Counted from the first letter of the stretch, positions 500-57,824 are shown. The stretch: DNA of 64,000 bases from Antedon mediterranea (GCF_964355755.1 NC_092672.1:4836001-4900000); one strand, 5' to 3'. Program-made: numbers and translations. Notes: generated by a model not told the origin, from the sequence alone.

Positions 500-1441
500 C
501 TAGTTTGTTGTTTTAGATGTGGTACAGTACGTTTTGTTAAAAAGACGGCGTAGAGCACATGAAAATGTCCGCAGACGACAAAAATATATGAAAGGATTCA
601 CCGCAGAGTTCATATTAATAAGAACTTCTGCAATCAGATAATACCAATATACGTCTGACCTTTGGTACCCGAATGCAAAATATACGATCGGTCTCAGAGC
701 ATGAGGCAAATATGTAATACCGAAAGCACCGACGATCAAAGCACTTGTTTTAGCCGCTTTCAATCTTTTATGGACAGCCTTACGTGCAATTATCGAAGTA
801 AGTGCTTTGTTCTTCTCGTGTTTCCTTGCCTTTAAAACAATTCTGAAATACATTACAATCAGCAAGATTGTACCAATCGACACCATAACTAAACTTATAA
901 AACTTTGAGCCATACGGGCGCGTTGATCCAACTCATAGCAGAAGAAACGGTCCTCGATTTTGTTCATTTCCCCAAAGAGTAGTATCATGCCGTACAAACA
1001 ACCTAGAATCCATGCCAAAACAACAGAAGAGTAGATTCTACGGAGAGTTATAAGTCGATGATATTGTAGTGGGTTCACTATAGAAACGTAGCGATCCACG
1101 GTGATTAACAGAAGGTGACAAAAGGAAACGGCGATAAAAACAGTTGAAGGAATGTACTGCAAGTAACATTGACTGGGTAAGTAGAGAGATCTCCGTTCTA
1201 TTGAACCCCACATAAACATGGGTACTGCGATCATTCCTGTGAGTAGGTCCACAAACGCTAAGCTTCCTATTAAAATAAACTGTGGTTGGTAAAAACTTCG
1301 AGTTTGTCGAATTACAAAAAGAACAAGTGCGTTCCCTGCAATAATAAATAACGCCAATGGTATATACACTGATAGAGAAACAATTAAATTATCTCTTATT
1401 TCGTCAGTTGTGACATTTCTGCTCATATACATTTCATCCAT
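500..1441 (-). CDS. Class A 7TM receptor, intronless (block A, gene 1)
   Basis: A 313-residue single-exon rhodopsin-class receptor. Visible landmarks: N-glycosylation sequon NVT at 9-11, Asn37 in the TM1 GN pair, Asp65 in LAFVD of TM2, Cys92 before TM3, DRY 116-118, Trp144 in TM4, Cys168 in the second extracellular loop (likely disulphide with Cys92), a basic third intracellular loop around 205-228, Pro246 in TM6 and NPFIY 282-286. Helix 8 carries FSCALRRLF, whose Cys could be palmitoylated. The residue 18 before the DRY arginine is Ser99, so the amine-binding Asp is absent. TM6 reads TYLP instead of CWxP. The ATG lies just inside a family-wide conserved leader. The block B copy at 21,092-23,913 is destroyed. 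Ligand unknown; G-protein coupling is inferred from DRY and NPxxY. Confidence 0.9.
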   Translation of the reverse strand: MDEMYMSRNVTTDEIRDNLIVSLSVYIPLALFIIAGNALVLFVIRQTRSFYQPQFILIGSLAFVDLLTGMIAVPMFMWGSIERRSLYLPSQCYLQYIPSTVFIAVSFCHLLLITVDRYVSIVNPLQYHRLITLRRIYSSVVLAWILGCLYGMILLFGEMNKIEDRFFCYELDQRARMAQSFISLVMVSIGTILLIVMYFRIVLKARKHEKNKALTSIIARKAVHKRLKAAKTSALIVGAFGITYLPHALRPIVYFAFGYQRSDVYWYYLIAEVLINMNSAVNPFIYFCRLRTFSCALRRLFNKTYCTTSKTTN

Positions 1442-1545
1442 TGTGTACAGAATACAGTAATATTATAAATAAAAATTATATTGAATCAACTTGTTATATA
1501 ACGTTGAACCAACCATTTCCTGTAACAAACATCCAATCAACAATA
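1442..1545 (-). promoter_or_regulatory. Conserved proximal 5' module upstream of gene 1
   Basis: Sequence next to the ATG recurs before nearly all receptor genes in the window: a TGTGTACAGAATAC-type leader, then an AT stretch with TTGAATCAACTTG and TATATAAC, then an AGGAAA word (plus-strand tttcct at 1516-1521), then an inverted CCAAT box (plus-strand ccaatca at 1533-1539). The order and spacing suggest a core promoter with an NF-Y-type box about 95 bp upstream of the ATG. The function is inferred from conservation and motif type only. Confidence 0.45.
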
Positions 1546-2279
1546 TACCACGGATTTCTGATTCCATGTATCAAACAATTGAACTCATTATAAAAACAAA
1601 CCGTAATATCAGAAATAAAATGTGTAATTTTCCTTAGAATCTATTATTCATAAAACCACAACCTCCTCTAACTAACAACCAATTTGTAGGGACCTACAAT
1701 GCGTGCACGTAATGCTAATGATTCCATGAATTTATTGTTAGAAATAACTCAACATTTCTATCTCAACCGTATGACCAAAACTCGCGTCGTTTGAGATAGT
1801 ACACCTTTTAATTCTTCTTTAGCCATTTTGCTATCTTAGGACGACATCCTTTTGAAAAAATACCGAATTGTGTAATTCTCTTCTTTTTATATCTATAGGC
1901 CTATTAATGCTACTAAATTGGTCGCGTAATGTCACGTATTTCCACCGAAACTGCTGAATGGTACGTGCTCACATTTGGCACACTAATGTTTCTTGATGGG
2001 CCGCACACAATATGCTATCTCACTTTCCTGAATTTTATGGATAAATACTTTAAAAAAGGCAAAAAAAAACCAGTAATCTGACGTCCCAGCGGTTATGTTT
2101 TACGAGTTGTTACGTCACGTATCAACTACGCAATCTTCTATGTTGTGTACCGCAATGGCCGGATCTAAATACCATGTCGGGCCACCAAATTAAAATAATG
2201 TTTAGTCTCGGCAGCCGGCCAACCGTATCGACTGATTGAATCGTTGGAGTTTTAATTAATTACATCTGGAACATAATGT
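1546..2279. other. Non-coding spacer duplicated in block B
   Basis: No gene seen. This stretch is nearly identical to about 24,000-24,745. A 103-codon plus-strand frame open in the block B copy is broken here by a one-base change in an A-tract, and it shows no codon conservation, so I do not call a gene. It contains a family-type upstream flank at the left and an unclassified repeat-like segment at 1920-2245. Confidence 0.5.
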
Positions 2280-2282
2280 ATT

Positions 2283-2485
2283 TATGTTAAGAAATGAATA
2301 CATTAAGAAATGAATATGTTAAGAAATGAATATACATTAAGAACTGAATATATGAAGAAATGAATATGTTATGGAATGAAAACATTAAGAATTGAATATG
2401 TTAAGAAATAAATATGTTAAATAATAAATGTGTCATGAAATGAATATGTTACTAAATGATTATGTTATAAAATGTCATTAAGAAA
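2283..2485. repeat. Minisatellite, about 16-bp unit (TTAAGAAATGAATATG)
   Basis: Tandem degenerate units alternate between TTAAGAAATGAATATG and ATTAAGAAATGAATAC types. The block B copy (24,750-25,078) is about 130 bp longer, so the array changed length after the block duplication. Confidence 0.85.
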
Positions 2486-2538
2486 AGAACATTATATTTT
2501 AGTCAAAAAAGAAAAAATAATAATGTATTTCGTAATTC

Positions 2539-2615
2539 ACGGTTATCTCAGTGAGTAAAACGTGGCCATTGATATCAATGCTAAGCACAGTCGAGTTCGA
2601 ATCCGCAAAACTGTT
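2539..2615 (+). repeat. tRNA-like / SINE-head sequence
   Basis: An A-box-like TATCTCAGTGAGT is followed about 45 bases later by a near-perfect B box, GAGTTCGAATCC, as in tRNA-derived SINE heads. A clean acceptor stem and anticodon arm cannot be drawn with confidence, so this is a tRNA-derived repeat or pseudo-tRNA and not a called tRNA. An essentially identical copy sits at 25,131-25,206 in block B. Confidence 0.5.
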
Positions 2616-2639
2616 ACTTATTTAAAAAGTGTGAGGTCG

Positions 2640-2936
2640 TTTTTTTTATTGGGTTTCCGCAGCCAGAAATTCTCCAGCCCATTTGATACAATTTCTGATT
2701 TAAAAAAATGTAATCGCAGTCGCTTTTAAAAACGCCACCTATTTTCAATACTTGTGATCACATGATATGATGGCATTTTTGTGAAAAAGCTTGGATCCCC
2801 TTGATTTAGGATATTTCGACCTCCCGTTGATTACGAAATTCGGCCATCTAAGCCTTTAATTTGCATAATTAAAAATGGCGGCCACTTTTTAATAACTACT
2901 CTATATCTTGAAAACCACTAGTCACAGATAATTATT
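2640..2936. other. Unclassified repeat-like spacer
   Basis: Contains AAAATGGCGGCCAC and TCGACCTCCC words resembling sequence around the long inverted-repeat element at 51,243. It is copied at 25,240-25,535. No open frame of interest. Confidence 0.35.
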
Positions 2937-3005
2937 CAGTGGATATACTGTACCACACAGTTAATGCATCAACAACAATCAACAATTCATTTTATTTCCT
3001 TATAA

Positions 3006-3056
3006 AACAAACAATTAAATTATCTCTTATTTCGTCAGTCGTAATATTTCTGCATT
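3006..3056 (-). pseudogene. Receptor N-terminal relic
   Basis: Reading on the minus strand gives the family N terminus NITTDEIRDNLIV and then runs straight into receptor 5'-flank sequence. It is bracketed by two direct copies of a receptor upstream segment (2937-3006 and 3137-3209, CAGTGGATATACTGTACC type). It looks like the collapsed remains of a receptor gene. Block B has a single copy of the flanking repeat (about 25,528-25,600) and lacks the relic. Confidence 0.6.
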
Positions 3057-3209
3057 TTATCCTTTATGTCCAGAATATATAATTACTGTAAACAAGATGA
3101 TATTAAACCAATCTTTTCCTCCAACTAAAAACAACCAATCAGTGGGTATACTGTACCACACAGTTCATGCATCAACAACAATCAACAATTCATTTTATTT
3201 CCTTATAAA

Positions 3210-4417
3210 ACTATTAAATAATAATACTGTAAACAATATAAAAACAACAATTTGCAAATTTCCTTATACTCTTTAATTATTCATACAAAGCACAGCATAA
3301 TTTTCAATTAGTTTCAGTATAAAATGTTATCTTATAAAAACACGAAATTTATTGAGATTTTTCTAAAACATATAAATAATATAATTTATTGACAAAAACA
3401 AAACAAATTCCTAAAACAATGAATTCAGATATTTTATCAATTTTAAAGCATTAAAGATGTGGAAAATGACTGTATGTTGTCAACTACATTTGATAAACTG
3501 GAAATTCTCGTTACTTTATCTAATTAATCGTTTAGACCTACACTCTAAAAGTATGTTTTTAAACTCTAAACACTTTTTAAACACTTCCTTGCTAACATGT
3601 TTAATGTGTAATGTTTACATAATTTAAACATGGTGTTCAGACATCTGACCTTTAGATAATTCCAATTTAGTGTTTAGATATATCTATTGCTCAGTCCAAA
3701 ATAATGAAAACAAATGTTAGGATCTTTTTTAATTGCTGCGTATTGTATTCAATCGATCGCAAGTATAAACAAAAACTGCTACGGAATATGATAATTTGGT
3801 CCCATCTTTGCAACAACCCAGACATTATTAAAAATAATGAAACACAGTTGAATACTGTACATAGGCTTACTTAAAATTACAAAATATAAACATTTTGGCA
3901 ACAATTGTGTTTTAAGGTTTAAGAACATTTAACTGTGTCCTATCAACATCTAGCACATATTGAACTGAATGAGGAATTAATTCCAATTTAAACAATACTG
4001 CTACGGTATGCCTCATAACGAGGTAAATAAACATGATAATTAAAAAGTTGCGTTTAAATCCAATATTCCTATTTGTCAGTGTCAATTTACTTTTAAAATT
4101 TCTTGCATTTATGCAAAATGACTACAAGCAAATGACGTAATGGTCTCAATTCTTGTTTTCTGAACAATCGTGTACAAAAAATCAACAAAAATACTGAAAC
4201 TCCTGACCTTGGGTAATATGAACTATGATGAACAAATTACCCGAACTAACTACAAACGTCGTTAATACAGAACAGTAAGCAAGTTTATCTTAAAGATGAA
4301 AATATACAGTAGTAGATAAAGCACAACAAAATCTTGACAACAACTCCGTGATACTTTGCAGTGACATACTGTTACGAGTGTGCGAATTGACGTCGGTAGG
4401 CATATTAGAGAAAAACC
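3210..4417. other. AT-rich intergenic spacer, 3' flank of gene 2
   Basis: No gene seen. The terminal part (about 4270-4417) belongs to the conserved receptor 3' flank, with AGCAAGTTTATCTTAAAGAT and a GATAAAGCACAACAAAATC word recurring downstream of many paralogues. Colinear with 25,600-26,808. Confidence 0.5.
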
Positions 4418-5335
4418 TCAAGCTCTAGTAAAACAGTTGTTTAAAAGACGACGCAGAGCACATGAAAATAGCTGTACACGCCAAACGTATATGAACGGAT
4501 TCACCGCAGAGTTCATGTAAAGAAGAGCGTCTTCAATCAGATCATACCAATGCAAGCGTGACTCTCCGTATTCCGGTACTAAATATACGACCGGTTTCAG
4601 AGCATAAGGCAAAAACGCAATAGCGAATGCAACGATGATCAGGGCACTTGTTTTAGCTGCTTTGTATCTTTTACGAATAAGATTACGTGTGCTCACCGTA
4701 CCGACTCTCATTTTCTCATATTTCCTTGCTACAAAAACAATTCTGGAATACATTACGATCATTAAGATTGTACCAATCGACACCACGCATGAAATAGTGT
4801 ACCTTTGACCTGCAAGAGCACGTTGATCCACCTGGTAGCAAAAGGAAATTCCTTCAATCTTTTTTAGATTTCCGAACACTAATACCATGGTGCCGTAAAA
4901 ACAACATATAATCCATGAAATCGCAATGGCAAAGTAGATTTTACGGAGTTGCATAAATTGACGATGCTGTAGCGGGCTCACAATAGAAACGTAGCGATCT
5001 ACGGTGATTAACAGAAGGTGGAAAAAGGAGACGGAGACAAAAATCACTGAAGGAATGTACTGCAAGTGGCAGTTAATCCGTACGAAGAGAGACTTCTGTA
5101 AGATAGCAGACCACATATGCATAGGTACGGCGATAATTCCTGTGAGTAGGTCCACAAACGCTAAGCTTCTTAGTAAAACAAACTGTGGTTTGTCATAACT
5201 TTTAGTTTGTCGAATCAAAAAAAGAACAAGTGCGTTCCCAGCAATAATTAATAACGCCAATGGTGTATACACGGATAGAACAAAGATTAAATTATCTCTC
5301 ATTTCGTCTGTGGTTGCATTGTTGCTTCCAGTCAT
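4418..5335 (-). CDS. Class A 7TM receptor, intronless (block A, gene 2)
   Basis: 305 residues, of the short-tailed subclade that begins MTGSNN or MAGSSN. N-glycosylation sequon NAT at 6-8, Asp62 in TM2, Cys89, DRY 113-115, Cys166 in ECL2, KAAKTSAL at the base of TM6, Pro243 (FLP) and NPFIY 279-283. The tail is only LLNNCFTRA after helix 8, unlike the longer tails of genes 12169 and 13772. The residue matching 3.32 is Ser96. ECL3 contains an unusual PEYGESRLHW segment where paralogues have YQPSDLYW, a candidate ligand-specificity difference. The block B orthologue at 26,809 is also open. Confidence 0.9.
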   Translation of the reverse strand: MTGSNNATTDEMRDNLIFVLSVYTPLALLIIAGNALVLFLIRQTKSYDKPQFVLLRSLAFVDLLTGIIAVPMHMWSAILQKSLFVRINCHLQYIPSVIFVSVSFFHLLLITVDRYVSIVSPLQHRQFMQLRKIYFAIAISWIICCFYGTMVLVFGNLKKIEGISFCYQVDQRALAGQRYTISCVVSIGTILMIVMYSRIVFVARKYEKMRVGTVSTRNLIRKRYKAAKTSALIIVAFAIAFLPYALKPVVYLVPEYGESRLHWYDLIEDALLYMNSAVNPFIYVWRVQLFSCALRRLLNNCFTRA

Positions 5336-5538
5336 TGTGTTCAGAATACACAGTGAGATTATTATAAATAAAAATGTATTGAATCAACTTGTTACATAAC
5401 AAAACCAACCTTTTCATTTAACATCTAACGAGTAAATAATGTCACGCAATTCCTGATACAATTTATCAAACAAATTTCCTGAAACAAATGCAGTAACATA
5501 AAAAAATAAATAGTAACTTAATAAACTCCAACCAATCA
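5336..5538 (-). promoter_or_regulatory. 5' flank of gene 2 with CCAAT box
   Basis: The leader TGTGTTCAGAATACAC is adjacent to the ATG. A family-conserved AT segment with TTGAATCAACTTG follows, and an inverted CCAAT box (plus-strand ccaatca 5532-5538) lies about 200 bp upstream. The flank of the gene at 26,809 is nearly identical over this interval. Confidence 0.35.
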
Positions 5539-5913
5539 GTATAGGCCTAAACAAAAACTGCTACAGAATATGGTAATTTGATCCTATCTTCGCAACAACC
5601 CAGACAAGATATAAAACAAATAATGAAACACAGTTGATTACTGTACATACGCTTACTTAAAATTACAAAATATAAACATTTTTGGCAACAACAGTGTTTT
5701 AAGGTTTTATTCAGGACATTTAACTGTAGGCCTATCAACATCTGCGCATATTGAACTGAATGAGGAAATAATTACAGTTTGAACCACACTTCTTGCTTCA
5801 TAAGGTAAATAAACATGATAATTAAAAAGTTGCATTTAAATCCAATCTTCCTATTAGTCAGTGTCAACTTACTTTAAATATTTAAATTTTTTTTAAACGA
5901 TTTAGTTTATGAA
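5539..5913. other. AT-rich spacer
   Basis: No gene seen. A 64-codon minus-strand frame at 5547-5741 is low-complexity and is not maintained in the block B copy near 27,940. Confidence 0.4.
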
Positions 5914-6044
5914 TGCTCTGTCTACACTATTACATTTTATGTGACAAATAATTGTGATGCACCCATACTATATGGACACGATGATGTCATACCACTACCA
6001 TATTTGGGCACATCAAAATTGTTTGATAGTATAGACAGAGCTTT
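5914..6044. mobile_element. MITE, GCTCTGTCTACACTAT family
   Basis: Terminal inverted repeats: GCTCTGTCTACACTAT at the left and ATAGTATAGACAGAGC at the right. The interior, TGTGACAAA...GTGATGCACC, is shared with 28,350-28,480 and, more diverged, with 56,461-56,600. The 75-codon plus-strand frame starting at 5941 lies in this element and is not a gene. It has the same position relative to gene 3 in both blocks, so it inserted before the block duplication. Confidence 0.8.
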
Positions 6045-6314
6045 ATGCTTGTTTACCAAACAATCGCATTTAAAAATCATTAACAACACTGACCTAGTAA
6101 TGTACTATAACAAATTACCTAAGCTAAATACAAACGTTAATACAGAACAGCAAGCAAGTTTATCTTAAAGATGAAAATATTGTAGGCCTAGATAAAGCAA
6201 AACAAAATCTTGATAACAAATCCTTGTACACTTTACAGCGCGCGACATACTGGTACGATTGTGTCTGAAATGACGTCGGTAGCCATATTAGAGACAAACC
6301 TCGGTCGTTAATTT

Positions 6315-7226
6315 TCAAGCTCTAGTAGAACAGTTGTTTAAAAGACGACGCAGAGCACATGAAAATTGTTGTAGACGGCAAACATATATAAACGGATTCA
6401 CCGCAGAGTTCATATAAACAAGAACGTCTGCAATCAGATCATACCAATACAATAAGTCTGACGGTTGATATATCAAATATAGGACCGGTTTCAGAGTACA
6501 AGGCAAAAACGCAATAGCGAATGCAACGATGATAAGGGCACTTGTTTTAGCTGCTTTGTATCTTTTACGAATAAGATTACGTGTACTCATCGTACCGACT
6601 CTCATTTTCTCATATTTCCTTGCTACAAAAACAATTCTGGAATACATTACGATCATTAAGATTGTACCAATCGACACAAGACATAAAGCAATGTACCTTT
6701 GAGCTGTATCAGCACGTTGATCCACCTGGTAGCAAAAGAAAATTCCTTCAATCTTTTTTAGTTTTCCAAAATATGCTACCATGCCATAAAAACAACTTAT
6801 AATCCATGAAATAGCAATGGCAGAGTAGATTTTACGGAGTTCCATAAATTTACGATGCTGTAGCGGGCTCACAATAGAAACGTACCGATCCGCAGTGATT
6901 AACAGAAGGTGAAAAAAGGAGACTGAGACAAAAATGTTTGAAGGAACGTACTGCAAGTGGCAGTAATTCCGTACGAAGAGAGACTTCTGTAAGATAGCAG
7001 TCCACATAAACATTGGTACGGCGATAATTCCTGTGAGTAGGTCCACAAACGCTAAGCTTCCTAGTAAAACATATTGAGGTTTGTCATAACTTTTAGTTTG
7101 TCGAATCAAAAAAAGAACAAGTGCGTTCCCAGCAATAATAAATAACGCTAGTGGTATATACATGGATAGAACAAACATTAAATTATCTCTCATTTCGTCT
7201 GTGGTTGCATTGCTGCTTCCAGCCAT
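6315..7226 (-). CDS. Class A 7TM receptor, intronless (block A, gene 3)
   Basis: 303 residues from the family-consistent start MAGSSNATTDEM. The frame is open for 35 more codons upstream, but that extension is the conserved 5' flank and lacks family support. Sequon NAT 6-8, Cys89, DRY 113-115 preceded by Ala (ITADRY, where paralogues have ITVDRY), ECL2 Cys165, Pro242 in AFLP, NPFIY 277-281, tail LLNNCSTRA. TM6 ends PCTLKPVLY where relatives have PYALKP. The block B copy at 28,750-29,660 has lost one base in TM1, so this is the only working copy of the pair. Confidence 0.9.
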   Translation of the reverse strand: MAGSSNATTDEMRDNLMFVLSMYIPLALFIIAGNALVLFLIRQTKSYDKPQYVLLGSLAFVDLLTGIIAVPMFMWTAILQKSLFVRNYCHLQYVPSNIFVSVSFFHLLLITADRYVSIVSPLQHRKFMELRKIYSAIAISWIISCFYGMVAYFGKLKKIEGIFFCYQVDQRADTAQRYIALCLVSIGTILMIVMYSRIVFVARKYEKMRVGTMSTRNLIRKRYKAAKTSALIIVAFAIAFLPCTLKPVLYLIYQPSDLLYWYDLIADVLVYMNSAVNPFIYVCRLQQFSCALRRLLNNCSTRA

Positions 7227-7570
7227 TGTGTTCAGAAACACAGTGAGATTATTATAAATAAGAAGGTATTGAATCAACTTGTTATATAACGAAAACCAAC
7301 CCTCTCCTTTAACCGCTAACGAGTATATCATGCTACGTAATTACCTGATACTATTTATCAAACAAATTCCCAGAAACAAAAACAGTATTATCAAAAATAA
7401 AATGTAATAACTTAATAAACCACAACCAATTTCCTGTAACTCTAACATCCAATACGAGGGGCCACAGTGCGTGCACATAATTCCGTAATTTCATGAATGA
7501 ACTAGAAGTAACTCAAAATAAAACAAGGCCAACAGCCATTAAGTCGCGTGCTACAATGCATAGTGATACC

Positions 7571-7640
7571 GGACCGACAGACAGACCGACAGACCGACAG
7601 ACAGACCGACAGACAGACAGACAGAGAGACCGACCGACCA
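7571..7640. repeat. Simple repeat (GACAGACC / GACA)n
   Basis: Interleaved CCGACAGACAGA units. A related array lies at 8216-8271, and a shorter one at about 30,003-30,022 in block B. All are flanked by GCATAGTGATACC on the left and a GTGAACTATA word on the right. Confidence 0.9.
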
Positions 7641-8215
7641 ACATAGTGAACTATACTGACCGAAATTACTGAACATGTTTAAAAATGTTGAAATGTTTAA
7701 AAACATTTATTTTTTTTTAATTTACACGTGCGTAGCCTGTCACTTTCGACGTGCTCGTATAACGTAATTTCAAGTTGAAAAGTAAGTCAAGAAAACAGAA
7801 ATCGGGCAAAAAGAGTGCGCAATAACATTTAACGCGCAGTGCGCGCGCAAAAATATGCGCACTCATGGCAATTTTTTAAACGCTTATTTCATCGAAAATA
7901 AATTTTGAAAATGTTAAGCGCGCGTACGCATGCGTTACATGCGCTACGCACGTAATTGTATTGCCATATGATGATTTATGCCCTGAAATTTATTATTACC
8001 AAATTTTATTTAATTGTGATTCATGGTTGTGAAGATATGATTACAAACGTGATTTCGTTAAATCGTGCGTAGACCGCGTAATTTTTTATTGCGCACCGTG
8101 AAAACATAACCACATTGATTCCTGGCCATAAGGAATATACTGTGAAAAATTGACCTAGCTAGATTAAACTGATATCAAGATAAGGTCAGAAAGCGATAAA
8201 ACGCATAGTGATACC
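7641..8215. other. Block-A-only CpG-rich segment between two simple repeats
   Basis: About 570 bp absent from the equivalent place in block B. It contains runs of alternating GCGC (7830-7870, 7917-7955, 8060-8100) that stand out against the AT-rich surroundings. It is bracketed by direct copies of GCATAGTGATACCGGACCGA (7558 and 8203). No open frame of note. Confidence 0.5.
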
Positions 8216-8271
8216 GGACCGACAGACAGACAGACAGACCGACAGACCGACAGACAGACCGACCGACCGAC
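8216..8271. repeat. Simple repeat (GACAGACC)n, second array
   Basis: Same units and same flanking words as the array at 7571. It is followed at about 8285-8303 by a short palindrome of the AGTCGC..CGCGACT type, perfect in the block B counterpart (30,037-30,054). Confidence 0.85.
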
Positions 8272-8301
8272 ATAGTGAACTATAGAGTCGCTTCCACGCG
8301 A

Positions 8302-8518
8302 CTAAAAAGTAACGCAAGATACAAGCCCACATATATGTATGGGTACGGCGATAATTCCTGTGAGTAGGTCTACAAACGCTAAGCTTCCTAGTAAAATGAA
8401 TTTGTCAAAACGTAGAGTTTGTCGAATAAACAAAACAAGTGCATTCCCAGAAACAATAACTAATGCCAATGGTATATATACTGATTTCGTCAGTCGTAAT
8501 ATTTCTGCTTATAGGCAT
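8302..8518 (-). pseudogene. Receptor relic, N terminus to TM2
   Basis: The minus strand begins MPISRNITTDE and then, in another frame, gives VSGNALVLF, FILLGSLAFVDLLTG and IIAVPIHI, ending before TM3. Codons between DE and TM1 are missing, so the frame breaks. The remainder of the receptor is absent. A shorter copy at the same place in block B (30,060-30,249) carries a further deletion in TM2. Confidence 0.8.
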
Positions 8519-8707
8519 TTCAACTATTATGTCAAGAATATGTAATTACTGTTTTGAAAAACAAGATGATATTGAACCAATCTTTTCCTCCAACTAAACA
8601 CCCATATCAGTGGGTATACTGTACCACCCAGTTCATGCATCAACAATTCATTTCCTTATAAAACTATTTTCTAAAATTTGACAATTTCCTTAATACGCAA
8701 ACAATGT

Positions 8708-8882
8708 CTTGGTTCCCACTAGAACGTAACGCAAGGACGTAAACGCAACGCAAGCGTTTTAACCAATGACAAGCGAAGTTATAGACAGTTAGCAATCACA
8801 AGCGAATAAGCCATCGCTTGTGATTGGTCAATTCACTTGCGTTGCGTTACGTCCTTGCGTTGCGTCACTAGTGGGAACCAAG
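8708..8882. mobile_element. MITE with CTTGGTTCCCACTAG ends
   Basis: 175 bp with terminal inverted repeats: CTTGGTTCCCACTAG at the left and CTAGTGGGAACCAAG at the right. These are followed inward by inverted ACGCAAGGACGTAA / TTACGTCCTTGCGT and by GCAACGCAAG / CTTGCGTTGC. No coding capacity. It is absent from the equivalent block B position. A copy of TTTCCTTAATACGCAAACAA lies on each side (about 8689 and 8906). Confidence 0.85.
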
Positions 8883-10031
8883 CTTTAGAGACTATGTAGA
8901 AAATTTCCTTAATACGCAAACAATGTCACTAAGGGTTCATCATGAATTGTATAATTCTCCTTCCTTTTATATAATATATTCATACAAATGTCACATCTTT
9001 TCTTCTTTTGTTGCGGTATTACTTGATACATTGTAATCACAAATGACATGTATTCTTACGCATAAACAAGGTTTAAAGAGGACATATAAATACATGAGAA
9101 GCATTGACAGCAAGACAAGTTCCCAAAACTCTGAACTTGTCTATCAAACAGCTATTTTTAATTTCAGATCATGTTATTCAACATCATGTATTATAGGCTA
9201 CTGGTGTCAACTGTGACAACAGGGATATTTTCAAAAACTATCTTAAGAAAAGTAGATGTGACACCTGAAAAAGTTGAATGCTGCATAGAATACCCAATCA
9301 GTGGATATACTGTAGCACACAGTTCACGCATCAACAATTCATTTCCTTATAAAACTATTTTCTAAAATTTGGAAATTTCCTTAATATTTTTTTATTATTC
9401 ATACAAAGTAGGCCTATTACATATTCAGTTTGTTTCATTATTACATGATATCTTGTAAAAACAATCAAACAACTGTCTAAACCCGAAATTAATTGAGATT
9501 TTATATTTCATTATATGTATGTATATAAGATATAATATATTGACAAAACAAAACAAATTCCCCAAAAAATTGAATTCAGATATTTTTATTTTATAAATGT
9601 TAACGCATGTGGAAAAATTACTGTATGTTGTCAACTGCATGTGGAAAACTGGAAATTCCCATTTATTTTTCTAAATATATGGACACTCTAGGCCCTAAAC
9701 ACATTTTTTGCTACCATTTTATAAACACTGCGATGTTTAGATATCCAATGCAAAAACGTAAGCATGTCTCTACTGAAAATAAGTCTCGCTTGTTGTTTGT
9801 TTAGCTGCCGTACGTTTTTTTTTTTGCAAGGCTAGCCTATCCCGTTCGAAAACGTTATTACAGAACAGGTTTTCTTTTACCTGTGTAATCCTGTATAAAG
9901 ATTTTGTTAAATAACAAGTTTATTTGTAAGTATAAAAGTAGATAAAGCAAAACAAAATGGAGACATACATTACCTATGTACACCTGCCATCGATGTGTAT
10001 GTCAGTTGTAATTGGAAAAGTACATTTCCCT
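8883..10031. other. Spacer containing a duplicated receptor upstream flank and the 3' flank of gene 5
   Basis: 9290-9400 repeats the upstream segment seen at 8600-8690 (TATACTGTA...CAACAATTCATTTCC). About 9420-10,031 is colinear with 30,430-31,069. No gene recognised; short frames here are not preserved between blocks in a meaningful way. Confidence 0.4.
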
Positions 10032-10994
10032 TTAAAGACAAGTCTCGGTTGTTGATAGTGTAGCCGTAATAGGCGATTTGTTAACAAGGCGGCGCAGAGC
10101 ACGTGAAAATGGCTGTAGACGCCAAACATAAATAAACGGATTCACCGCAGAGCTCAAATTGACAAGAAGTTCTGCAATGAGAACATACCAATACATGTCT
10201 GACTGTTGGTGTACAAGTAAATATACGACCGGTTGAAGAGCATGGGGAAAAAACGTAATACCGAATGCACAGATGACCAACGCACTTGTTTTAGCTGCTT
10301 TGGATCTCTTACGAACAATTTTACGTGTGCTGACGGGAATACAGATTATGTTTTTTTCATGTTTTCTTGCTTCTACAACAATTCTGAAATACAATATCAT
10401 CAACAGGATTGTACCAATCGCCACCAAGACTAAAGTTACGTAACGTTGAACTTCAATAGCGCGTCGACTAATCTGGTAGCAGAAGAAAATGCCCTCAATC
10501 TTGTCCACTTTCCAGAACACTTCCATGGTTCCGTAAAAAATACCCATTATCCATGACAAAGCAATAGAGAAATAGATTCTATGGAGAGTTATATGTTTAT
10601 AATAGTGTAGTGGTTTTATTATAGAAACGTAGCGATCCATTGTGATTAACAAAAGGTGGAACCAAGACACTGCAATAAAGACCTTTGTAGGAATGTACTG
10701 CAAGTGACAATTATTCTGTAGGTAGAGAGATCTGCGTGAGATACAAGCCCACATAAACATTGGTACGGCGATAATTCCTGTGAGTAGGTCCACAAACGCT
10801 AAGCTTCCAAGTAAAACAAACTGTGGTTCTTCAAAACTTCTACTAGTCTGTCGAATTACAAAAAGAACAAGTGCGTTTCCAACAATAATAACTAAATCCA
10901 ATGGTATATACACTGTTAGAACAAAAATTAAATTATCTCTCATTTCGTCTGTCGTGATATTTCTGCGTATTGGCATTTCATCCATTGTGTTCAT
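10032..10994 (-). CDS. Class A 7TM receptor, intronless (block A, gene 5)
   Basis: 320 residues from the first ATG; a start at Met4 (10,985, MDEMPIRRN) matches the usual family start equally well. Sequon NIT 12-14, Asp69 in TM2, Cys96, DRY 120-122, Cys172 in FFCYQ, Pro250 in TFFP, NPFIY 285-289. Helix 8 reads FSRALRRLV, so the usual FSCAL cysteine (possible palmitoylation site) is Arg here. The long Ser/Thr tail ends TETCL, which fits a class I PDZ-ligand pattern. Residue 3.32 is Thr103. An extra residue in ICL1 (TSRSFEEPQ) distinguishes this subclade. The block B copy has a stop codon and a frameshift. Confidence 0.9.
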   Translation of the reverse strand: MNTMDEMPIRRNITTDEMRDNLIFVLTVYIPLDLVIIVGNALVLFVIRQTSRSFEEPQFVLLGSLAFVDLLTGIIAVPMFMWACISRRSLYLQNNCHLQYIPTKVFIAVSWFHLLLITMDRYVSIIKPLHYYKHITLHRIYFSIALSWIMGIFYGTMEVFWKVDKIEGIFFCYQISRRAIEVQRYVTLVLVAIGTILLMILYFRIVVEARKHEKNIICIPVSTRKIVRKRSKAAKTSALVICAFGITFFPHALQPVVYLLVHQQSDMYWYVLIAELLVNLSSAVNPFIYVWRLQPFSRALRRLVNKSPITATLSTTETCL

Positions 10995-11447
10995 GGGATC
11001 CAGGATATGAAATTACTTAATGGTATTGAATCAACTTGGTATATAGTCAAACCAACCTTTTCCTCTACTCCAATTAAAACACCCAACCAGCGGATACTGC
11101 ATCAACTCTTTTACTGTATGCATCAACAATTTATTTCCGTAATATAAAATAATACTGTAAACAAGCACTGATATCTGTAAGCTTTAATTTAATTATTCAT
11201 ACGAAGTATTGCATTTCAGCTTGTTTCGGTTATTGTCTAAATCCGAATAAAGTTGAGAACACGAAACCAATTTTCCTACGCACAAAATATCTATGTTTGT
11301 GATATATAACATATTGACAAAAACAAAACAAATTTCCAAAACACTGAATTCAGATATTTTTATTTTACCAACCATAACGCATTATATATAAGCCTAAAGA
11401 AAGTTACTGCATGTTGTCCGACTACAGTCAAGTATACCTAAAAGAGG
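10995..11447. other. 5' flank of gene 5
   Basis: Contains a TTGAATCAACTTGG word and CCAACCTTTTCC, the family's conserved upstream words. No gene seen. Confidence 0.4.
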
Positions 11448-11600
11448 AAGATAAATCGAGGCCCGGCCTGTCTCAGAGAAATGGAGAAGAACTCTAGTGA
11501 AAAGGTTGGAAGGAAGAGGACTTTTGACACAGCCCCTCGAACTGCAGCAGACATAGCTAAATGGAGAACATACGTTTCTTCATGTTGTAACTACATGTTG
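11448..11600 (+). mobile_element. Retroposon ORF2 C-terminal relic
   Basis: Across two plus-strand frames the sequence gives EARPVSEKWRRTLVKRLEGR and then TFDTAPRTAADIAKWRTYV. This resembles the conserved C-terminal tail of many non-LTR retrotransposon proteins (R..KRW..D...RGLT...A..LA.DR.KWR). The frames are broken. A copy lies at 32,488-32,640 in block B. Confidence 0.4.
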
Positions 11601-12168
11601 AAATGCCCTCGTGCACACTAGATTGAACTGAATGAGGAATTCATTCAAAACAAAATACTTGTATGACAATTAAAAGCTTGTGTTTAAATCCAATATTTCA
11701 TTATATTTACCATGTCAAATTAATTTCTTTTTTGAATTAACTATTTAGTTTACATAATTATGTGCAATTCTAATTCTAAACTCCTCATTCGCGCTTTTTT
11801 TTCTCAAAATAGTCACGTGCAATAACAAATCAATAAAAGTGAACGACTGGCCTCAGTAATATGAACTGATCATACGACAAATTATTGAGCTGCAAATTAA
11901 GTACAGATCAGTAAACAAGTTTATGATTAAAATGGTAGAAAAAGCAAACAATTTTTTTTTACAATAAATACGCGTACACTAATAATAAAAATTGAAAGTT
12001 AAACAATAATGTCAGTTGTACTGCATTATTACATTAATATTAAGTGCAATGCATTGTAAATGAACATTTTTACTGGTGAAGAAATAAAAGTGGTTTTAAA
12101 CAAGACAAAACAAAAATAAATACGCATACACTTTGCAGCGACATGCAGATTGTGTCTAAAAAGAAGTC
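11601..12168. other. AT-rich spacer, 3' flank of gene 6
   Basis: No gene seen. It is nearly identical to 32,640-33,205, consistent with the very recent duplication of gene 6. Confidence 0.45.
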
Positions 12169-13122
12169 TTAGAGACAGACTTCGGTTGTTGATTTTGAAG
12201 CTTTAGTAGTAAACTTGTTTAGAAGACGACGCAGAGCACATGAAAATTGCTGTAGACGACAAACATATATAAACGGATTCACCGCCGAGCTCATATAAAC
12301 AAGAACGTCTGCAATCAAATCATACCAATACAAGTCTGACGGTTGATATACCAAATATAGGACTGGTTTCATAGCGTAAGGCAAAAACGTAATACCGAAT
12401 GCTCCGATGACAAGGGCACTTGTTTTAGCTGCTTTGAATCTTTTACGAACAATCCTACGTGTGCTGACTGGAATACTGACAATTCTTTTTTCATGTTTTC
12501 TTGCTTCTAAAAAGATTCTGAAATATAATATGATCAATAAAATTGTATCAGTCAAAATCATCCATAAAGTAATGTAACGTTGAACATCAATAGCACGTTG
12601 GTCCATCTGGTAACAGAAGAAAATTCCCTCAATCTTTTCCATTGCCCAGAACAACTCCACGGTGCCATAAACACAACCTATAACCCATGACAAAGCAATA
12701 GAGAAGTATATTCTATTAAGATTTACAAGTTTATGATACTGTAGCGGTTTCATTATAGAAACGTAGCGATCTACGGTGATGCACAGAAGATGGCACACAG
12801 ATACTGAAATACAGATATTTGAAGGAATGTACTGTATCTGACATAAGTCAATGTTTTGTAGGTAGAGAGATCTCTGTAAGATACAAGCCCACATAAACAT
12901 TGGTACGGCGATAATTCCGGTGAGTAGGTCCACAAACGCTAAGCTTCCTAGTAAAACAAACTGTGGTTCGTCATAACTTCGAGTTTGTCGAATCAAAAAA
13001 AGAACAAGCGCGTTTCCAGAAATAATAACAAAATCCAATGGTATATACACTGTTAAAACAAAAATTAAATTATCTCTCATTTCTTCTGTCGTGATATTTC
13101 TGAGTGTAAAAAGTTCGTCCAT
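12169..13122 (-). CDS. Class A 7TM receptor, intronless (block A, gene 6)
   Basis: 317 residues. Sequon NIT 9-11, Cys94 inside IDLCQIQYIP, DRY 118-120, Cys170, Pro248 in TFLP, NPFIY 282-286. TM5 is unusual in having an acidic residue (TDTILLIILY, Asp192). TM3 is cysteine-rich (ICISVSVCHLLC). The tail after helix 8 is Lys/Ser/Thr-rich and ends TEVCL. Its block B partner at 33,206 differs by one residue as far as I can align by eye (Arg45 here, Gln there), making this the least diverged pair in the array. Confidence 0.92.
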   Translation of the reverse strand: MDELFTLRNITTEEMRDNLIFVLTVYIPLDFVIISGNALVLFLIRQTRSYDEPQFVLLGSLAFVDLLTGIIAVPMFMWACILQRSLYLQNIDLCQIQYIPSNICISVSVCHLLCITVDRYVSIMKPLQYHKLVNLNRIYFSIALSWVIGCVYGTVELFWAMEKIEGIFFCYQMDQRAIDVQRYITLWMILTDTILLIILYFRIFLEARKHEKRIVSIPVSTRRIVRKRFKAAKTSALVIGAFGITFLPYAMKPVLYLVYQPSDLYWYDLIADVLVYMSSAVNPFIYVCRLQQFSCALRRLLNKFTTKASKSTTEVCL

Positions 13123-45079: not shown

Positions 45080-45943
45080 TCAAACATATATAAATGGATT
45101 TACTGCAGAGCTCATATAGAGAAGAAGTTCTGCAATCAGATCATACCAATACAAGTCTGACGGTTGGTATACCAAATATAGGACTGGTTTCATAGCAAAC
45201 GGTAAAAACGCAATAACGAATGCTCCGATGATAAAAACACTCGTTTTAGCTGCTCTGTATCTTTTCCGAACAACCTTTCGTGTTTTTACTGGAATACTGA
45301 CTATGTTTTTCTCATGTTTCCTTGCTTCTAAAACAATTCTGAAACACATTATCATCAACAGGATTGTACCAATCGGCACCAAGACTAAACTTACGTAATT
45401 TTTAACTTCAAAAGCGCGTCGACTAATCTGGTAGCAGAAGAAAATGCCATCAATCTTCTTAATTCCTCCAAACAATCGTATCATGCCGTAAAAACAACCC
45501 ATAATCCATGACATAGCAATAGAGAAGTAGATTCTACAGAGAGTTATAAGTTTATGATAATGTAGCGGTTTCATGATAGAAACGTAGCGATCCACGATTA
45601 TTAAAAGGAGATGCAAAACGGAGGTCGAAATAAATATTGATGATGGAATATACTGTAACTCACACTCATAAAAATTCGGTAAATAGAGAGATCTATGTAA
45701 GATCCAACCCCACATATACATTGGTACGGCGATAATTCCTGTGAGTAGGTCCACAAATGCTAAGCTTCCCAGTAAAACAAATTGTGGTTCGTCATAACTT
45801 CGAGTTTGTCGAATTACAAAAAGAACAAGCACGTTTCCAACAACAATAACTAAACCCAATGGTATGTACACTGCTAGAACAAATATCAAATTATCTCTCA
45901 TTTCGTCAGTCGTGATATTTCTGCTTGTAAAAACTTCATCCAT
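45080..45943 (-). CDS. Class A 7TM receptor truncated after TM7
   Basis: 287 residues with all core features (sequon NIT 9-11, CELQYIP, DRY, FFCYQI, AFLPFAM, NPFIYV), ending at a TGA directly after NPFIYV. Relative to 42,533, 30 bp coding for helix 8 (plus strand between two AGACG copies near 45,076) are missing, and the following Trp codon TGG has become TGA. Helix 8 and the C-terminal tail are therefore lost. Receptors without helix 8 usually traffic or couple poorly, so this may be a non-functional or decoy form, though the 7TM core is otherwise undamaged. Confidence 0.82.
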   Translation of the reverse strand: MDEVFTSRNITTDEMRDNLIFVLAVYIPLGLVIVVGNVLVLFVIRQTRSYDEPQFVLLGSLAFVDLLTGIIAVPMYMWGWILHRSLYLPNFYECELQYIPSSIFISTSVLHLLLIIVDRYVSIMKPLHYHKLITLCRIYFSIAMSWIMGCFYGMIRLFGGIKKIDGIFFCYQISRRAFEVKNYVSLVLVPIGTILLMIMCFRIVLEARKHEKNIVSIPVKTRKVVRKRYRAAKTSVFIIGAFVIAFLPFAMKPVLYLVYQPSDLYWYDLIAELLLYMSSAVNPFIYV

Positions 45944-48634: not shown

Positions 48635-49537
48635 TTAGTTAAACATACGGCGCAGAACACATGAAAATTGCTGTAGACGCCAAACATATATAAACGGATT
48701 TACTGCAGAGCTCATATTGACTAGAAGTTCTACAATCAGATCATACCAATACCAGAAGTCTGACGGTTGGTATACCAAATATAGGACCGGTTTCAGTGTA
48801 CATGGGAAGTACACACTAATGAATGCTCCAATGATGATAGCACTCGTTTTAGCTGCTCTGTATCTTTTCCGAACAACCTTTCGTGTTTTTACTGGAATAC
48901 TGAATATGTTTTTCTCATGTTTCCTTGCTTCTAAAACAATTCTGAAATACATTACCATCAATATCATTGTACCAGTAGACATCATTACTAAAGCTATATA
49001 ACGTTGAACTTTAATAGCGCGTCCATTCATCCCATAGCAGAAGAAAATGCCCTCAATCTTCTTAATTCCTCCAAACAATGTTACCATGCCGTAAAAACAA
49101 CCTATAATCCATGAGATAGCAATAGAGAAGTATATTATACGGAGAGTTACAAGTTTATGATATTGTAGCGGTTTTATGATAGAAACGTAGCGATCCACGG
49201 TGATCAACAAAAGGTGGAACCAAGACACTGCAATAAAGATCTTTGTAGGAATGTACTGCAATTCACATTTAATGTCTGGGTAGTAATATCCATGTAATAT
49301 ACAAGCCCACATATACATTGGTATAGCGATCATTCCTATTAGTAGATCCACAAACGCTAAGCTTCCTAGTAAAACAAATTGAGGTTCGTCATAATTTCGA
49401 GTTTGTCGAAGTACAAACAAAACAAGACTATTCCCAACAATAATAACTAAATCCAATGGTATGTACACTGATAGAACAAATATTAAATTATCTCTCATTT
49501 CGTCAGTGATATTTGTGCTTGTAAAATATTTATCCAT
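48635..49537 (-). CDS. Class A 7TM receptor, intronless (48,635; paralogue of 19,516)
   Basis: 300 residues from MDKYFTSTN (49,537). An in-frame ATG 28 codons upstream lies in flank sequence and is not favoured. The N terminus has lost one Thr codon (NITDEM, where relatives have NITTDEM) but keeps a sequon. TM2 reads LIGMIAIPMYM, ECL1 has HGYYYPDIKC, DRY is intact, ECL2 is FFCYGM, TM6 is unusual (ISVYFPCTLKP), NPFIY is present, and the end is RRMFN. ECL1 and ECL2 differ from 19,516 more than the TM helices do. Confidence 0.9.
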   Translation of the reverse strand: MDKYFTSTNITDEMRDNLIFVLSVYIPLDLVIIVGNSLVLFVLRQTRNYDEPQFVLLGSLAFVDLLIGMIAIPMYMWACILHGYYYPDIKCELQYIPTKIFIAVSWFHLLLITVDRYVSIIKPLQYHKLVTLRIIYFSIAISWIIGCFYGMVTLFGGIKKIEGIFFCYGMNGRAIKVQRYIALVMMSTGTMILMVMYFRIVLEARKHEKNIFSIPVKTRKVVRKRYRAAKTSAIIIGAFISVYFPCTLKPVLYLVYQPSDFWYWYDLIVELLVNMSSAVNPFIYVWRLQQFSCVLRRMFN

Positions 49538-50012: not shown

Positions 50013-50997
50013 CTACTGACAAATATCGCTTACTGGATTTTTGGCTGTGGCAGACGTTTTGATAAAAAGACGACGCAGAGCACATGAAAATTGTTGTAAA
50101 CGACAAACATATATGAACGGATTCACCGCAGAGCTCATATTGACTAGAATATCTCCAATCAGAACATACCAATACACGTCTGACCTTTGGTATCCTAAGG
50201 AGTGTACCACTGGTCTCAGTGTTCGGGGAAATGAAAAGGATTGATGGAATTTTCTTCTGCTACCGAATGGATCTACGCGCTATTGAAGTTCAACGTTATA
50301 TAGCTTTAGTAATGATGCCCACTGGTCTCAGCGTATATGGCAAGTACACAATAAAATGCTCCGATGATGATAGCACTCGTTTTAGCTGCTCTGTATCTTT
50401 TACGAACAACCTTTCGTGTTCTTACTGGAATACTAAATATGCATTTCCCATGTTTCCTTGCTTCTAAAACAATTCTGAAATACATTATCAATAAGATTGT
50501 ACCAGTGGGCATCATTACTAAAGCTATATAACGTTGAACTTCAATAGCGCGTAGATCCATTCGGTAGCAGAAGAAAATTCCATCAATCCTTTTCATTTCC
50601 CCGAACAATTGTACCGCGTGCCGTAAAAACAACCTATAATCCATGAGAACTACAATGGAAAAGTAGATTCTACGGAGAGCAGAGATTGTGATAAACATTT
50701 TTGAAGGAATATACTGTAACTCACCGCACTCTGTAAATAGAGCGATCTGCGTGAGATACAACCCCACATATACATGGGTACTGCGATAATTCCTGTGAGT
50801 AGGTCCACAAACGCTAAGCTTCCTAGTAAAACAAACTGTGGTTCGTCATAACTTCGAGTTTGTCGTATTACAAAAAGAACAAGTGCGTTTCCAACAATTA
50901 TAACTAAACCCAATGGTATGTACACTGCTAGAACAAACATCAAATTATCTCTCATTTCGTCAGTCGTGACATTTCTGAGTGTAAGAAGTTCATCCAT
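50013..50997 (-). pseudogene. Receptor pseudogene with internal inverted duplication
   Basis: Starts MDELLTLRNVTTDEM and ends NPVSDICQ, paralogous to 15,938 and 56,868. Lesions: frameshifts around ECL1 (50,730), an 80-bp deletion near 50,679 removing the DRY region and ICL2, small indels in TM5-TM6, and insertion near 50,220 of an inverted 107-bp copy of its own ECL2-TM5 segment. It keeps an intact NPFIY, unlike 15,938. Confidence 0.93.
50220..50607. repeat. Perfect 107-bp inverted repeat inside a pseudogene
   Basis: 50,220-50,326 is the exact reverse complement of 50,501-50,607 by base-by-base reading, with a 174-bp loop. The left arm reads in plus-strand sense as FGEMKRIDGIFFCYRM... because it is a flipped copy of receptor codons. 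CACTGGTCTCAG occurs on both sides of the inserted arm. Confidence 0.95.
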
Positions 50998-51242
50998 TGT
51001 TTATAGGATGTAAAGTATTGATTAAAAACGAAGATAGATAACATTGAATTGGCTTCCTATTGCACCGGGCCAACCCTTTCCTGTAGATAATTCATTAACA
51101 TTGATTGAATTTCAGTTTGGATAGCGAGACCAAAGAGAATGTAACAATTCATATACAGTACCGTACTGTACTGGCTTATTTGAAACTACTGACATTTCCT
51201 GTTACAGATACTAACCAATACCGTTCTCAATTTACGTTTATT
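50998..51242. other. 5' flank of pseudogene 50,013
   Basis: Receptor-type flank (CCAACCCTTTCCTGTAG) up to the left end of the inverted-arm element. Resembles 57,825-58,080. No gene seen. Confidence 0.4.
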
Positions 51243-54468: not shown

Positions 54469-54734
54469 TATTATTATTATTATTTATTGCCAAAAACCAG
54501 TTACAAACAAACAAAAACACAGAAACTAAGGGAGTAGGCAGGAACCTAAAAGTGAACCTAATCACTATAACAAGAGTTCAGGTTCCGTACTCCCAAAGTA
54601 ACAACAATGATATATAATAAACTATATAAAAATATTTAAATAACAAATAGACGAATCAACATCAACGTAAAATCATGATTTTCTAATAGTATTTAAACAA
54701 ATAACTGTGAAAACACAATAGTTTTAAATAGCGG
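54469..54734. other. ATT microsatellite and AT-rich segment
   Basis: An ATT run at 54,467-54,485 is followed by sequence containing AGGAACCT / AGGTTCC inverted words. It could be the tail of another retroposon. No gene seen. Confidence 0.35.
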
Positions 54735-54900
54735 ACTCAAAATGTTGAGTTTGTCGATTTACAAAAAGAACAAGTGCGTTTCCAGAAATACTAACTAAAC
54801 CCAATGATATGTACACTGATGATTTTTTTTTACAAAAATGAAATTATATCTAATTTCGTCAATCGTAATATTTCTGCTTGTAAAATCCATTGTATACAGA
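54735..54900 (-). pseudogene. Receptor relic, N terminus and TM1
   Basis: The minus strand starts MDFTSRNITIDEIRYNFIFV and, after frame changes, gives SGNALVLFVN in TM1, then ends. The 5' flank is receptor-like (ccaatca about 54,968). Confidence 0.75.
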
Positions 54901-55871: not shown

Positions 55872-56402
55872 TGGTAATTTGGATTTGGGAGGTAATTTAA
55901 GGGGTCTTTTTTTTGTCGTGGTCTAAAAATAATGTAGTTAGTCTTATCGAAATTTAAAATAAGGTTGTTTGTCATAAACCATGTATTAATTTTGTAAAGT
56001 TCAATATTTAATGCGTCTATAAGATTGTTTATATTATTATCACTCATGAAAACAGTGGTATCATCTGCAAAGGAAATCACGTTTATTTTATCACTTACTC
56101 TAATAATATCGTTGACATAGATAAGAAATAACAAGGGCCCAAGAATGGACCATTGCGGTACTCCACATTTAATATGTTGGAGTGATGATTTGGTTTGATT
56201 TATTTGTACAAATTGTTTTCGTTCTTGTAAATAGCTTTAAATCCATTTGTAACCAGTTCCTCAAATACCATAGTGATGCATCTTTTTAAGCAAAATATCA
56301 TGATTCATTACATCAAATGCCTTTGATAGGTCCATAAATATGCTAATTAAGTATTTCTTGTTCTCGAATGACGTGATTATTTGCCATGCCAACATATAGG
56401 TG
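55872..56402 (-). mobile_element. Non-LTR retroposon RT fragment
   Basis: Minus-strand reverse-transcriptase motifs: FENKKYLI, IFMDLSKAFDVMNHDILLKK (motif A), two stops, then CGVPQWSILGPLLFLIYVND (normally PQGS), and SFADDTTVFMSD (catalytic FADD), ending near PNPNYQLIK. It differs from the RT at 36,121 in motif spacing and sequence, so it is another family. Truncated at both ends and dead. Confidence 0.85.
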
Positions 56403-56460
56403 GCTGGTTATAACACATTATCTTAAATAGTGATAAAGTACAACATATAATTTTATCTTA

Positions 56461-56600
56461 AAGCTCTGTCTACACTATCAAACTAGTTTGACAAAAAGGT
56501 GTGATGTGACCAAATATGGTAGTGATATGACATCGTGTCCATATATATGGGCATATCACATGTTTTTGTCACATAAAGTTTGATAGTGTAGAAAGAGCTT
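56461..56600. mobile_element. MITE with TA target duplication
   Basis: 140 bp. The left end AAGCTCTGTCTACACTATC and right end GATAGTGTAGAAAGAGCTT are inverted, flanked by TA on both sides (56,459-56,460; 56,601-56,602), as for Tc1/mariner-type insertions. It shares the terminus and TGTGACAAA / ATGTCATACCAC-type interior (inverted) with 5914 and 28,350. Confidence 0.85.
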
Positions 56601-56867
56601 TAGAATAAAACCTTTTGTCAAATTTTCATAAAATAAAATACAATTGTTCATCAACATATTTTAATCCTCGAAAAATATGCGCTATACGATTTATACATGA
56701 GTAGGTTTCATTCTTGGTATCCATTTTACGGTATGACCAGTTAATTCGCAATTAACAACTGTGATTTAGCGTAGACTAACTAACAGATTGAATTTTAATG
56801 TTATCGCCAGCTGATACAAATCCTTCTCTGATTCATCCATGGCAGGGCCTTGTAAAATGTAAAATGT

Positions 56868-57824
56868 CTACTGACAAATATCGCTTACTTGAGTTTTAGC
56901 TGTGGCAGACGCTTTGTTAAAAAGACGACGCAGAGCACATGAAAATTGCCGAAGACGACAAACATATATAAACGGATTCACTGCAGAGCTCATATTGACT
57001 AGAATATCTCCAATCTGAACATACCAATACACGTCTGAGCGTTGATATCCAAAGAAGTATACGACCGGTCTCAGCGTATAAGGCAAGTACACAATAATGA
57101 ATGCTCCGATGATGATAGCACTTGTTTTAGCTGCTCTGTATCTTTTCCGAACAACCTTTCGTGTTCTTACAGGAATACTGACTATGTTTTTCTCATGTTT
57201 CCTTGCTTCTAAAACAATTCTGGAATACATTATCATCAATATAATTGTACCAGTAGGCATCATTACTAAAGCTATATAACGTTGAACTTCAATAGCGCGT
57301 CGATCCATTCGGTAGCAGAAGAAAATTCCATCAATCCTTTCCATTTCCCCGAACAATTGTATCATGCCGTAAAAACAACCTATAATCCATGACAAAACAA
57401 TGGAAAAGTAGATTCTACGGAGAGTTATAAGGTTATAATATTGTAGCGGTTTCATTATAGAAACGTAGCGATCCACGGTGATTAATAGAAGATGCCAGGC
57501 AGAGATTGTGATAAACATTGTTGAAGGAATATACTGTAATTCACACTCGTAAAAATTCTGTAAAAAGAGCGATCTGCGTGAGATACAAGCAAACATAAAC
57601 ATTGGTACGGCGATAATTCCTGTGAGTAGGTCCACAAACGCTAAGCTTCCCAGTAAAACAAACTGTGGTTCGTCATAACTTCGAGTTTGACGAAGTACAA
57701 AAAGAACAAGCACGTTTCCAACAATAACAACTACACCCAATGGTATGTACACTGATAGTACAAATATCAAATTATCTCTCATTTCTTCAGTCGTGACATT
57801 TCTGCTTGTAAAAACTTCATCCAT
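56868..57824 (-). CDS. Class A 7TM receptor, intronless (last gene of the array)
   Basis: 318 residues. Sequon NVT 9-11, GNVLVLFVLRQ in TM1, CELQYIP, DRY 118-120, FFCYRM in ECL2, VYLPYTLRP in TM6, NPFIY 283-287, helix 8 FSCALRRLF, tail NKASATAKTQVSDICQ. It is the intact member of the 15,938 / 50,013 / 56,868 group: 15,938 has lost the end and 50,013 is shattered. TM5 ends MYSRIV where its relatives have MYFRIV. The array stops here; nothing receptor-like is seen to the right. Confidence 0.92.
   Translation of the reverse strand: MDEVFTSRNVTTEEMRDNLIFVLSVYIPLGVVVIVGNVLVLFVLRQTRSYDEPQFVLLGSLAFVDLLTGIIAVPMFMFACISRRSLFLQNFYECELQYIPSTMFITISAWHLLLITVDRYVSIMKPLQYYNLITLRRIYFSIVLSWIIGCFYGMIQLFGEMERIDGIFFCYRMDRRAIEVQRYIALVMMPTGTIILMIMYSRIVLEARKHEKNIVSIPVRTRKVVRKRYRAAKTSAIIIGAFIIVYLPYTLRPVVYFFGYQRSDVYWYVQIGDILVNMSSAVNPFIYVCRLRQFSCALRRLFNKASATAKTQVSDICQ

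Follow-up and report, generated by a model that had tools for sequence, protein, structure and literature searches.

A minus-strand tandem array of single-exon class A receptors in the feather star Antedon mediterranea, a probable crinoid case of echinoderm chemosensory-like receptor expansion

Introduction

What kind of receptors crowd one strand of a short chromosomal region in the feather star Antedon mediterranea, and what might they detect? The region is a stretch of 64,000 nucleotides (C3:4836001-4900000, hereafter the window) in a 354-Mb genome whose 11 large chromosomes measure 22-41 Mb each. Crinoids branch as sister to all other living echinoderms and, to our knowledge, have no pedicellariae. 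The 'surreal' GPCRs of sea urchins and the OR-like receptors of starfish and sea cucumbers are mostly single-exon, tandem, lineage-specific expansions (PMC5442662, PMC7042368). Expression of tandem single-exon families in these other echinoderms has been described, in the same two papers, for tentacles, oral tissue, papillae, and further exposed tissues. The literature searched reports chemosensory-like expansions of GPCRs in sea urchin, starfish, and sea cucumber, and none in a crinoid. An initial annotation of the window reported an array of intronless receptors without the CWxP tryptophan or the aminergic aspartate, and named lineage-specific echinoderm expansions as the nearest precedent.

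Results

Organization of the array

An ORF scan combined with tblastn back onto the window revealed 13 intact single-exon class A receptors of 300-320 aa, all on the minus strand, as are the damaged copies and remnants of the window. Five carry the TM6 motif AFLP: 4418..5335 (305 aa, S3.32, D7.39), 6315..7226 (S3.32, D7.39; the ORF is open to 7331, with the inner ATG at 7226 the likelier start), 19516..20430 (304 aa, T3.32, E7.39), 26809..27717 (302 aa, S3.32, D7.39), and 42533..43441 (302 aa, S3.32), whose Lys7.39 is an exception. VYLP occurs in 13772..14728 (318 aa, S3.32, E7.39), in 34803..35762 (319 aa, S3.32, E7.39), which is 91.5% identical to 13772, and in 56868..57824 (318 aa, S3.32, D7.39). 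The remaining intact copies are 500..1441 (313 aa, S3.32, TYLP, E7.39), 10032..10994 (320 aa, T3.32, TFFP, E7.39), 48635..49537 (300 aa, T3.32, VYFP, E7.39), and 12169..13122 (317 aa, S3.32, TFLP, D7.39) together with 33206..34159 (317 aa), a pair that differs by one residue (99.7% identity).

At least ten pieces of damaged array material, comprising six copies with clear damage and four short remnants, are interspersed among them. A 2-base deletion past NPFI shifts the frame of the C-terminus in 15938..16894, and 28750..29706 suffers an early frameshift right behind the N-terminus, with the remainder open. The copy at 21092..23913 is a split version of gene 500, whose pieces are approximately 99% identical to it but are separated by a 1.96-kb insert (21746-23706), with 84 bp missing. 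A damaged duplicate of 10032 (31073..32033) contains a frameshift and a nonsense codon, a truncated receptor (45080..45943, 287 aa) ends directly at NPFIYV without helix 8, and a pseudogene at 50014..51000 has several frameshifts and a short inverted self-repeat matching on the plus strand (50072-50326). The remnants are an N-terminal part (8218..8536), an N-terminus of 23 residues (41869..41937), and two further pieces (30070..30258 and 54730..54884). The count of 13 full-length and six damaged receptors in the initial annotation is thus reproduced, with the four remnants added. The array extends leftward past the window, where four more ORFs of the same family reach as far as C3:4813495, so that it totals approximately 80 kb and about two dozen related receptors. 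A relative with 67% identity is found on C11, and C3:38.05 Mb holds a broken one. Mutual identity among array members is about 60-99.7%.

Two representative members match Pfam 7tm_1 with 131 and 138 bits (E 7e-38 and 5e-40; cut-off 30.5), and the secondary matches to 7tm_4 (40-42 bits) and Srsx are weak. These E values and the mutual identity of the members put the array well outside what chance would produce. With 7tm_1 above cut-off and D2.50, DRY, and NPxxY present, the array members belong to class A.

The crinoid origin of the genome is visible in a neuropeptide. The crinoid L-type SALMFamide ends in GLRFHKGAPF-NH2 (PMC9793003), and a back-translated pattern of this peptide has exactly one exact match in the genome, while the reversed control has none. 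The match encodes GLRFHKGAPFG-KR, and its frame reads ...TRGLRFHKGAPFGKRAYD..., with a proper amidation and cleavage site. The genome also contains muscarinic-like and other amine-like receptors, as judged from residues and sequence, and an adenosine receptor; an innexin search of it yielded two weak matches only, and a COX1 search of the assembly yielded no match. The receptors mark the genome as bilaterian, and taken with the innexin result they point away from cnidarians and most protostomes.

Residue signature

Residues were read by alignment, with receptors of the same genome as a control. Because all 15 aminergic receptors of this genome show D3.32, W6.48, and P5.50, the residue numbering is correctly placed; the array has none of the three. 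DRY and NPFIY are kept in all 13 intact copies. Position 3.32, for which Ser or Thr had initially been counted in four genes, has Ser in 10 of the 13 and Thr in the other 3. The TM6 variants TYLP, AFLP, TFFP, VYLP, and VYFP noted before, and TFLP in addition, place Phe or Tyr at 6.48, and Trp occurs there in 0/13. Two features go beyond that first description: position 5.50 is Gly or Asp and never Pro, and position 7.39 carries an acid, Glu or Asp, in 12 of the 13 intact copies, with Lys in the single case of 42533. The signalling residues D2.50, C3.25, S3.39, DRY, Y5.58, F6.44, N7.49, and Y7.53 are intact. In the pocket, Q3.28, Q5.39, P6.55, and Y6.58 are invariant, while 7.43 is occupied by Asn, Tyr, Thr, or Ile. 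Trp7.33 stands at the start of TM7 in most members, and Leu in 13772 and 34803. K3.33 is accompanied by E7.39 in 9/9 sequences, including the C7 relative L023, a count that represents only three independent pairs, too few to demonstrate covariation. An AlphaFold model computed from 14 window paralogs reached a pLDDT of 49, too poor for placing residue 7.39.

Position among the receptors of the genome

In an IQ-TREE tree of 102 GPCR sequences, all from this one genome, the 20 array-type sequences form one clade (support 100/99). The next branches are two sequences on C7, L023 (100/99) and then L027 (100/96), the latter retaining CWTP but reading DCY in place of DRY. Adding two small groups located on C8, C4, and C9 completes a 31-sequence clade with moderate support (90/87). 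Single-protein searches with L040 and L031 agree with the tree, in that array members are the top matches after the queries' own small groups. An acid at 7.39 is found in 30/31 sequences of this clade, versus 1/28 in its sister clade and 1/15 among the amine receptors. The sister clade consists of 28 sequences in C8 and C9 clusters and has W6.48 in 0/28. In the larger clade of 59 sequences (97/90), W6.48 is absent from 58, L027 being the sole keeper, and no vertebrate odorant receptor has CWxP either (PMC8244491). The initial annotation had presented the loss of Trp6.48 as part of a special combination, which was overstated; its choice of an echinoderm setting, with lineage-specific expansions as the nearest precedent, holds.

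The adenosine receptor L042, whose match to A2A has an E value of 2e-73, branches next (86/71), closer to the array than any other deorphanised receptor on the tree. AU tests reject a clade that unites array and aminergic receptors (p 5.6e-61) and one that adds L042 alone to the array (p 6.3e-5). The array therefore forms a single clade separate from both the amine and the adenosine receptors of this genome, and it nests in none of the deorphanised families tested, namely those in this genome.

Comparison with known receptor families

The best PDB matches of the array profile are TAAR9, TAAR13e, TAAR7f, and the beta-1 adrenergic receptor (E 4e-31 to 9e-29), a likeness to aminergic receptors that is not borne out by the residues: D3.32, W6.48, and P5.50 are missing. 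With Ser or Thr at 3.32 in 13/13 and a position outside the amine clade by the AU test, the array is not aminergic. Adenosine receptors are excluded in addition to the tree result by P6.55 in place of N6.55 and by Asn, Tyr, Thr, or Ile in place of H7.43, besides the missing W6.48 and P5.50; the same residues at 7.43, where Lys is absent, speak against opsins. Melanocortin receptors have no Cys3.25 and keep Trp6.48, and the array shows the reverse at both positions.

Vertebrate odorant receptors resemble the array in lacking the CWxP toggle Trp, in having a single exon and tandem arrays, and in reading KAxxT where TM6 starts. Their motifs, as given in PMC7042368, are MAxDRYxxxCxPLxY, KAxxTxxxH, and PxxNPxxY; at these sites, the array reads ITVDRYVSIMKPLQY, KAAKTSALI, and SSAVNPFIY. 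It thus lacks MAxDRYxxxC, the His of the second motif, and the first Pro of the third, and its 7tm_4 score of 40-42 bits contrasts with 131-138 for 7tm_1. An assignment to vertebrate odorant receptors is consequently rejected, since the diagnostic motifs are missing. The OR signature LxxPxYxxxxxLxxxDxxxxxxxxP does not discriminate, as the array matches 4.0/6 of it and the amine controls 4.2/6.

The echinoderm surreal and OR-like GPCRs, as portrayed in PMC5442662 and PMC7042368, share with the array the rhodopsin class, mostly single exons, tandem arrangement, lineage-specific expansion, and purifying selection. The array comes from a crinoid, a group outside those two studies, whose available sections make no mention of an acid at 7.39. 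The array shows the single-exon tandem organization and the lineage-specific expansion, its lineage specificity being judged within this genome only.

Duplication, selection, and alternative explanations

Duplication, both in tandem and of whole blocks, gave rise to the family, with gene conversion and the death of copies alongside. A segmental duplication pairs 161..15069 with 20715-36121 (a block of approximately 15 kb, whose aligned pieces are 89-96% identical), and another pairs 16013..20451 with 45060-49557 (approximately 94%). The offset of 20-21 kb between blocks might indicate haplotypes placed in tandem, so that copy number would partly be an assembly artefact. Stretches of 98-100% identity across approximately 4 kb fit this explanation, which we nevertheless regard as very unlikely: identity elsewhere in the same block is 89-93%, the pair 13772/34803 has a dS of 0.15, the lesions are not the same in both blocks, and most of the array remains after one block is removed. 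Within the gene pair 13772/34803 of the first block pair, identity falls from 98-100% to 91-93%, and half-gene trees conflict. L004 groups with 12169/33206 in the 5'-half tree (100/99) and with 15938/56868 in the 3'-half tree (94/87), in which 12169/33206 joins the 4418 group (98/95). Since the two trees disagree and identity drops inside a gene pair, paralogs were probably mixed by conversion or crossing-over within ORFs. A cluster that expands and decays neutrally, with most copies unexpressed, is an unlikely account as well. It would explain why at least ten damaged copies and remnants lie alongside 13 intact ones, and why dN/dS is relaxed, with a maximum of 0.94 in the young pair 4418/26809. 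The median pairwise dN/dS is 0.42, however, with no pair above 1; the core motifs survive in every intact copy, and 12169/33206 show one amino-acid change against a dS of 0.024. The array is maintained under relaxed purifying selection.

Another account, to which we assign a smallish chance, somewhat larger than that of neutral decay, holds that the receptors serve internal signalling, with a hormone, neuromodulator, or metabolite as ligand, and were multiplied by unequal crossing-over with an effect on dosage and not on ligand diversity. Near-identical copies such as 12169/33206, the four invariant pocket residues, as with one common ligand, and an adenosine receptor as the nearest deorphanised relative all favor it. 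Sensory families are a better match for the turnover, the pseudogenes, and the related C8 and C9 clusters, and pocket positions vary more than other TM positions (entropy 1.05 versus 0.66, p 7e-4) and than non-pocket positions of the outer half (p 0.011). The pN/pS of the pocket (0.51) nearly equals that of other TM positions (0.45), and ligand-driven diversification or positive selection on the pocket is therefore not demonstrated.

Discussion

The array is best read as a crinoid member of a known echinoderm kind, the 'surreal'-like and probably chemosensory receptor expansions. Judging from gene organization and phylogeny, we consider it fairly probable that it represents a lineage-specific single-exon rhodopsin-class expansion, most likely of chemosensory receptors on externally exposed cells; the chemosensory role is the likeliest because the tandem single-exon families of other echinoderms are expressed in exposed tissue. 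As far as the literature searched shows, the array is new for a crinoid, its kind is already known in echinoderms, and nothing in it points to a receptor of a wholly new category.

In such chemosensory receptors, a small polar or charged ligand would bind the usual pocket. In many class A receptors, position 7.39 forms part of the orthosteric pocket wall, and some chemokine receptors use an acid at this site to bind basic groups of their ligands; our literature search found nothing on acid 7.39 in chemokine receptors. By sequence, the near-invariant acid at 7.39 may serve as the ligand counter-ion and main charged anchor, instead of Asp3.32, a reading against which Lys7.39 in the intact copy 42533 counts. 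Being a single case, that Lys is too little to establish a charge swap. Phe or Tyr at 6.48, above F6.44, would relay the movement to TM6, and its presence is no argument against function, because vertebrate odorant receptors all lack CWxP (PMC8244491). G-protein coupling would then excite the sensory cell. R3.50, Y5.58, F6.44, N7.49, and Y7.53 are tied to G-protein coupling in class A receptors and are retained here, so that coupling is likely. Variation at 3.33, 4.60, 6.51, 7.35, and 7.43 may cause ligand preferences to differ among the copies.

A broader and rather doubtful extension is that the array and its dispersed relatives (approximately 35 genes) form one crinoid superfamily that senses charged small molecules via the acid at 7.39. 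If this were true, ligands such as amines or amino acids would be expected, and a cation pocket would have evolved separately, together with a Trp-less TM6 switch. The signature of the clade, namely an acid at 7.39 without W6.48 and P5.50, can be searched for in other echinoderms, and the array provides a concrete, testable set of receptors that feather stars may use to detect food and mates.

Conserved, repeated and inserted elements within the receptor array

In most gene copies of the array, a short conserved stretch, TACT...TTCTGTACACA, lies directly upstream of the ATG and is perhaps part of a 5′ UTR or promoter. One copy of gene 500, an intact array receptor, is interrupted by a 1.96-kb insert (21746–23706). 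This insert, which a 4-base target duplication possibly flanks, lacks clear terminal inverted repeats, and no further copy of it was found within the 64-kb window. The frameshifted receptor pseudogene at 50014–51000 contains a short inverted repeat (50072–50326) duplicating its own ECL2/TM5 portion, and this inverse orientation accounts for the receptor match on the plus strand at these positions.

The 16-bp tandem repeat TATGTTAAGAAATGAA occurs in both duplicated blocks, at 2283–2474 in the first and 24750–25060 in the second, with differing copy numbers. Two arrays, each comprising two copies of a 302-bp unit (38719–39311 and 40934–41524), lie within the receptor-free 36–42 kb interval and are apparently related to each other in opposite orientations. 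Fragments resembling reverse transcriptases of the non-LTR retrotransposon type, as judged from sequence, are interspersed with the receptor genes, at 36074–37171 (plus strand, reading FADDLVLLAPS) and 55859–56236 (minus strand, reading FADDTTVFM).

Other receptors elsewhere in the genome

L027, a relative of the array receptors at G000:C7:64746-65648, retains the toggle Trp (CWTP) but carries DCY in place of DRY. A further tandem array of 7tm_1 receptors, with more than 10 matches on the minus strand, is located at G000:C3:31557034-31654124, on the same chromosome as the window array; its member L063 has Lys at position 3.32.
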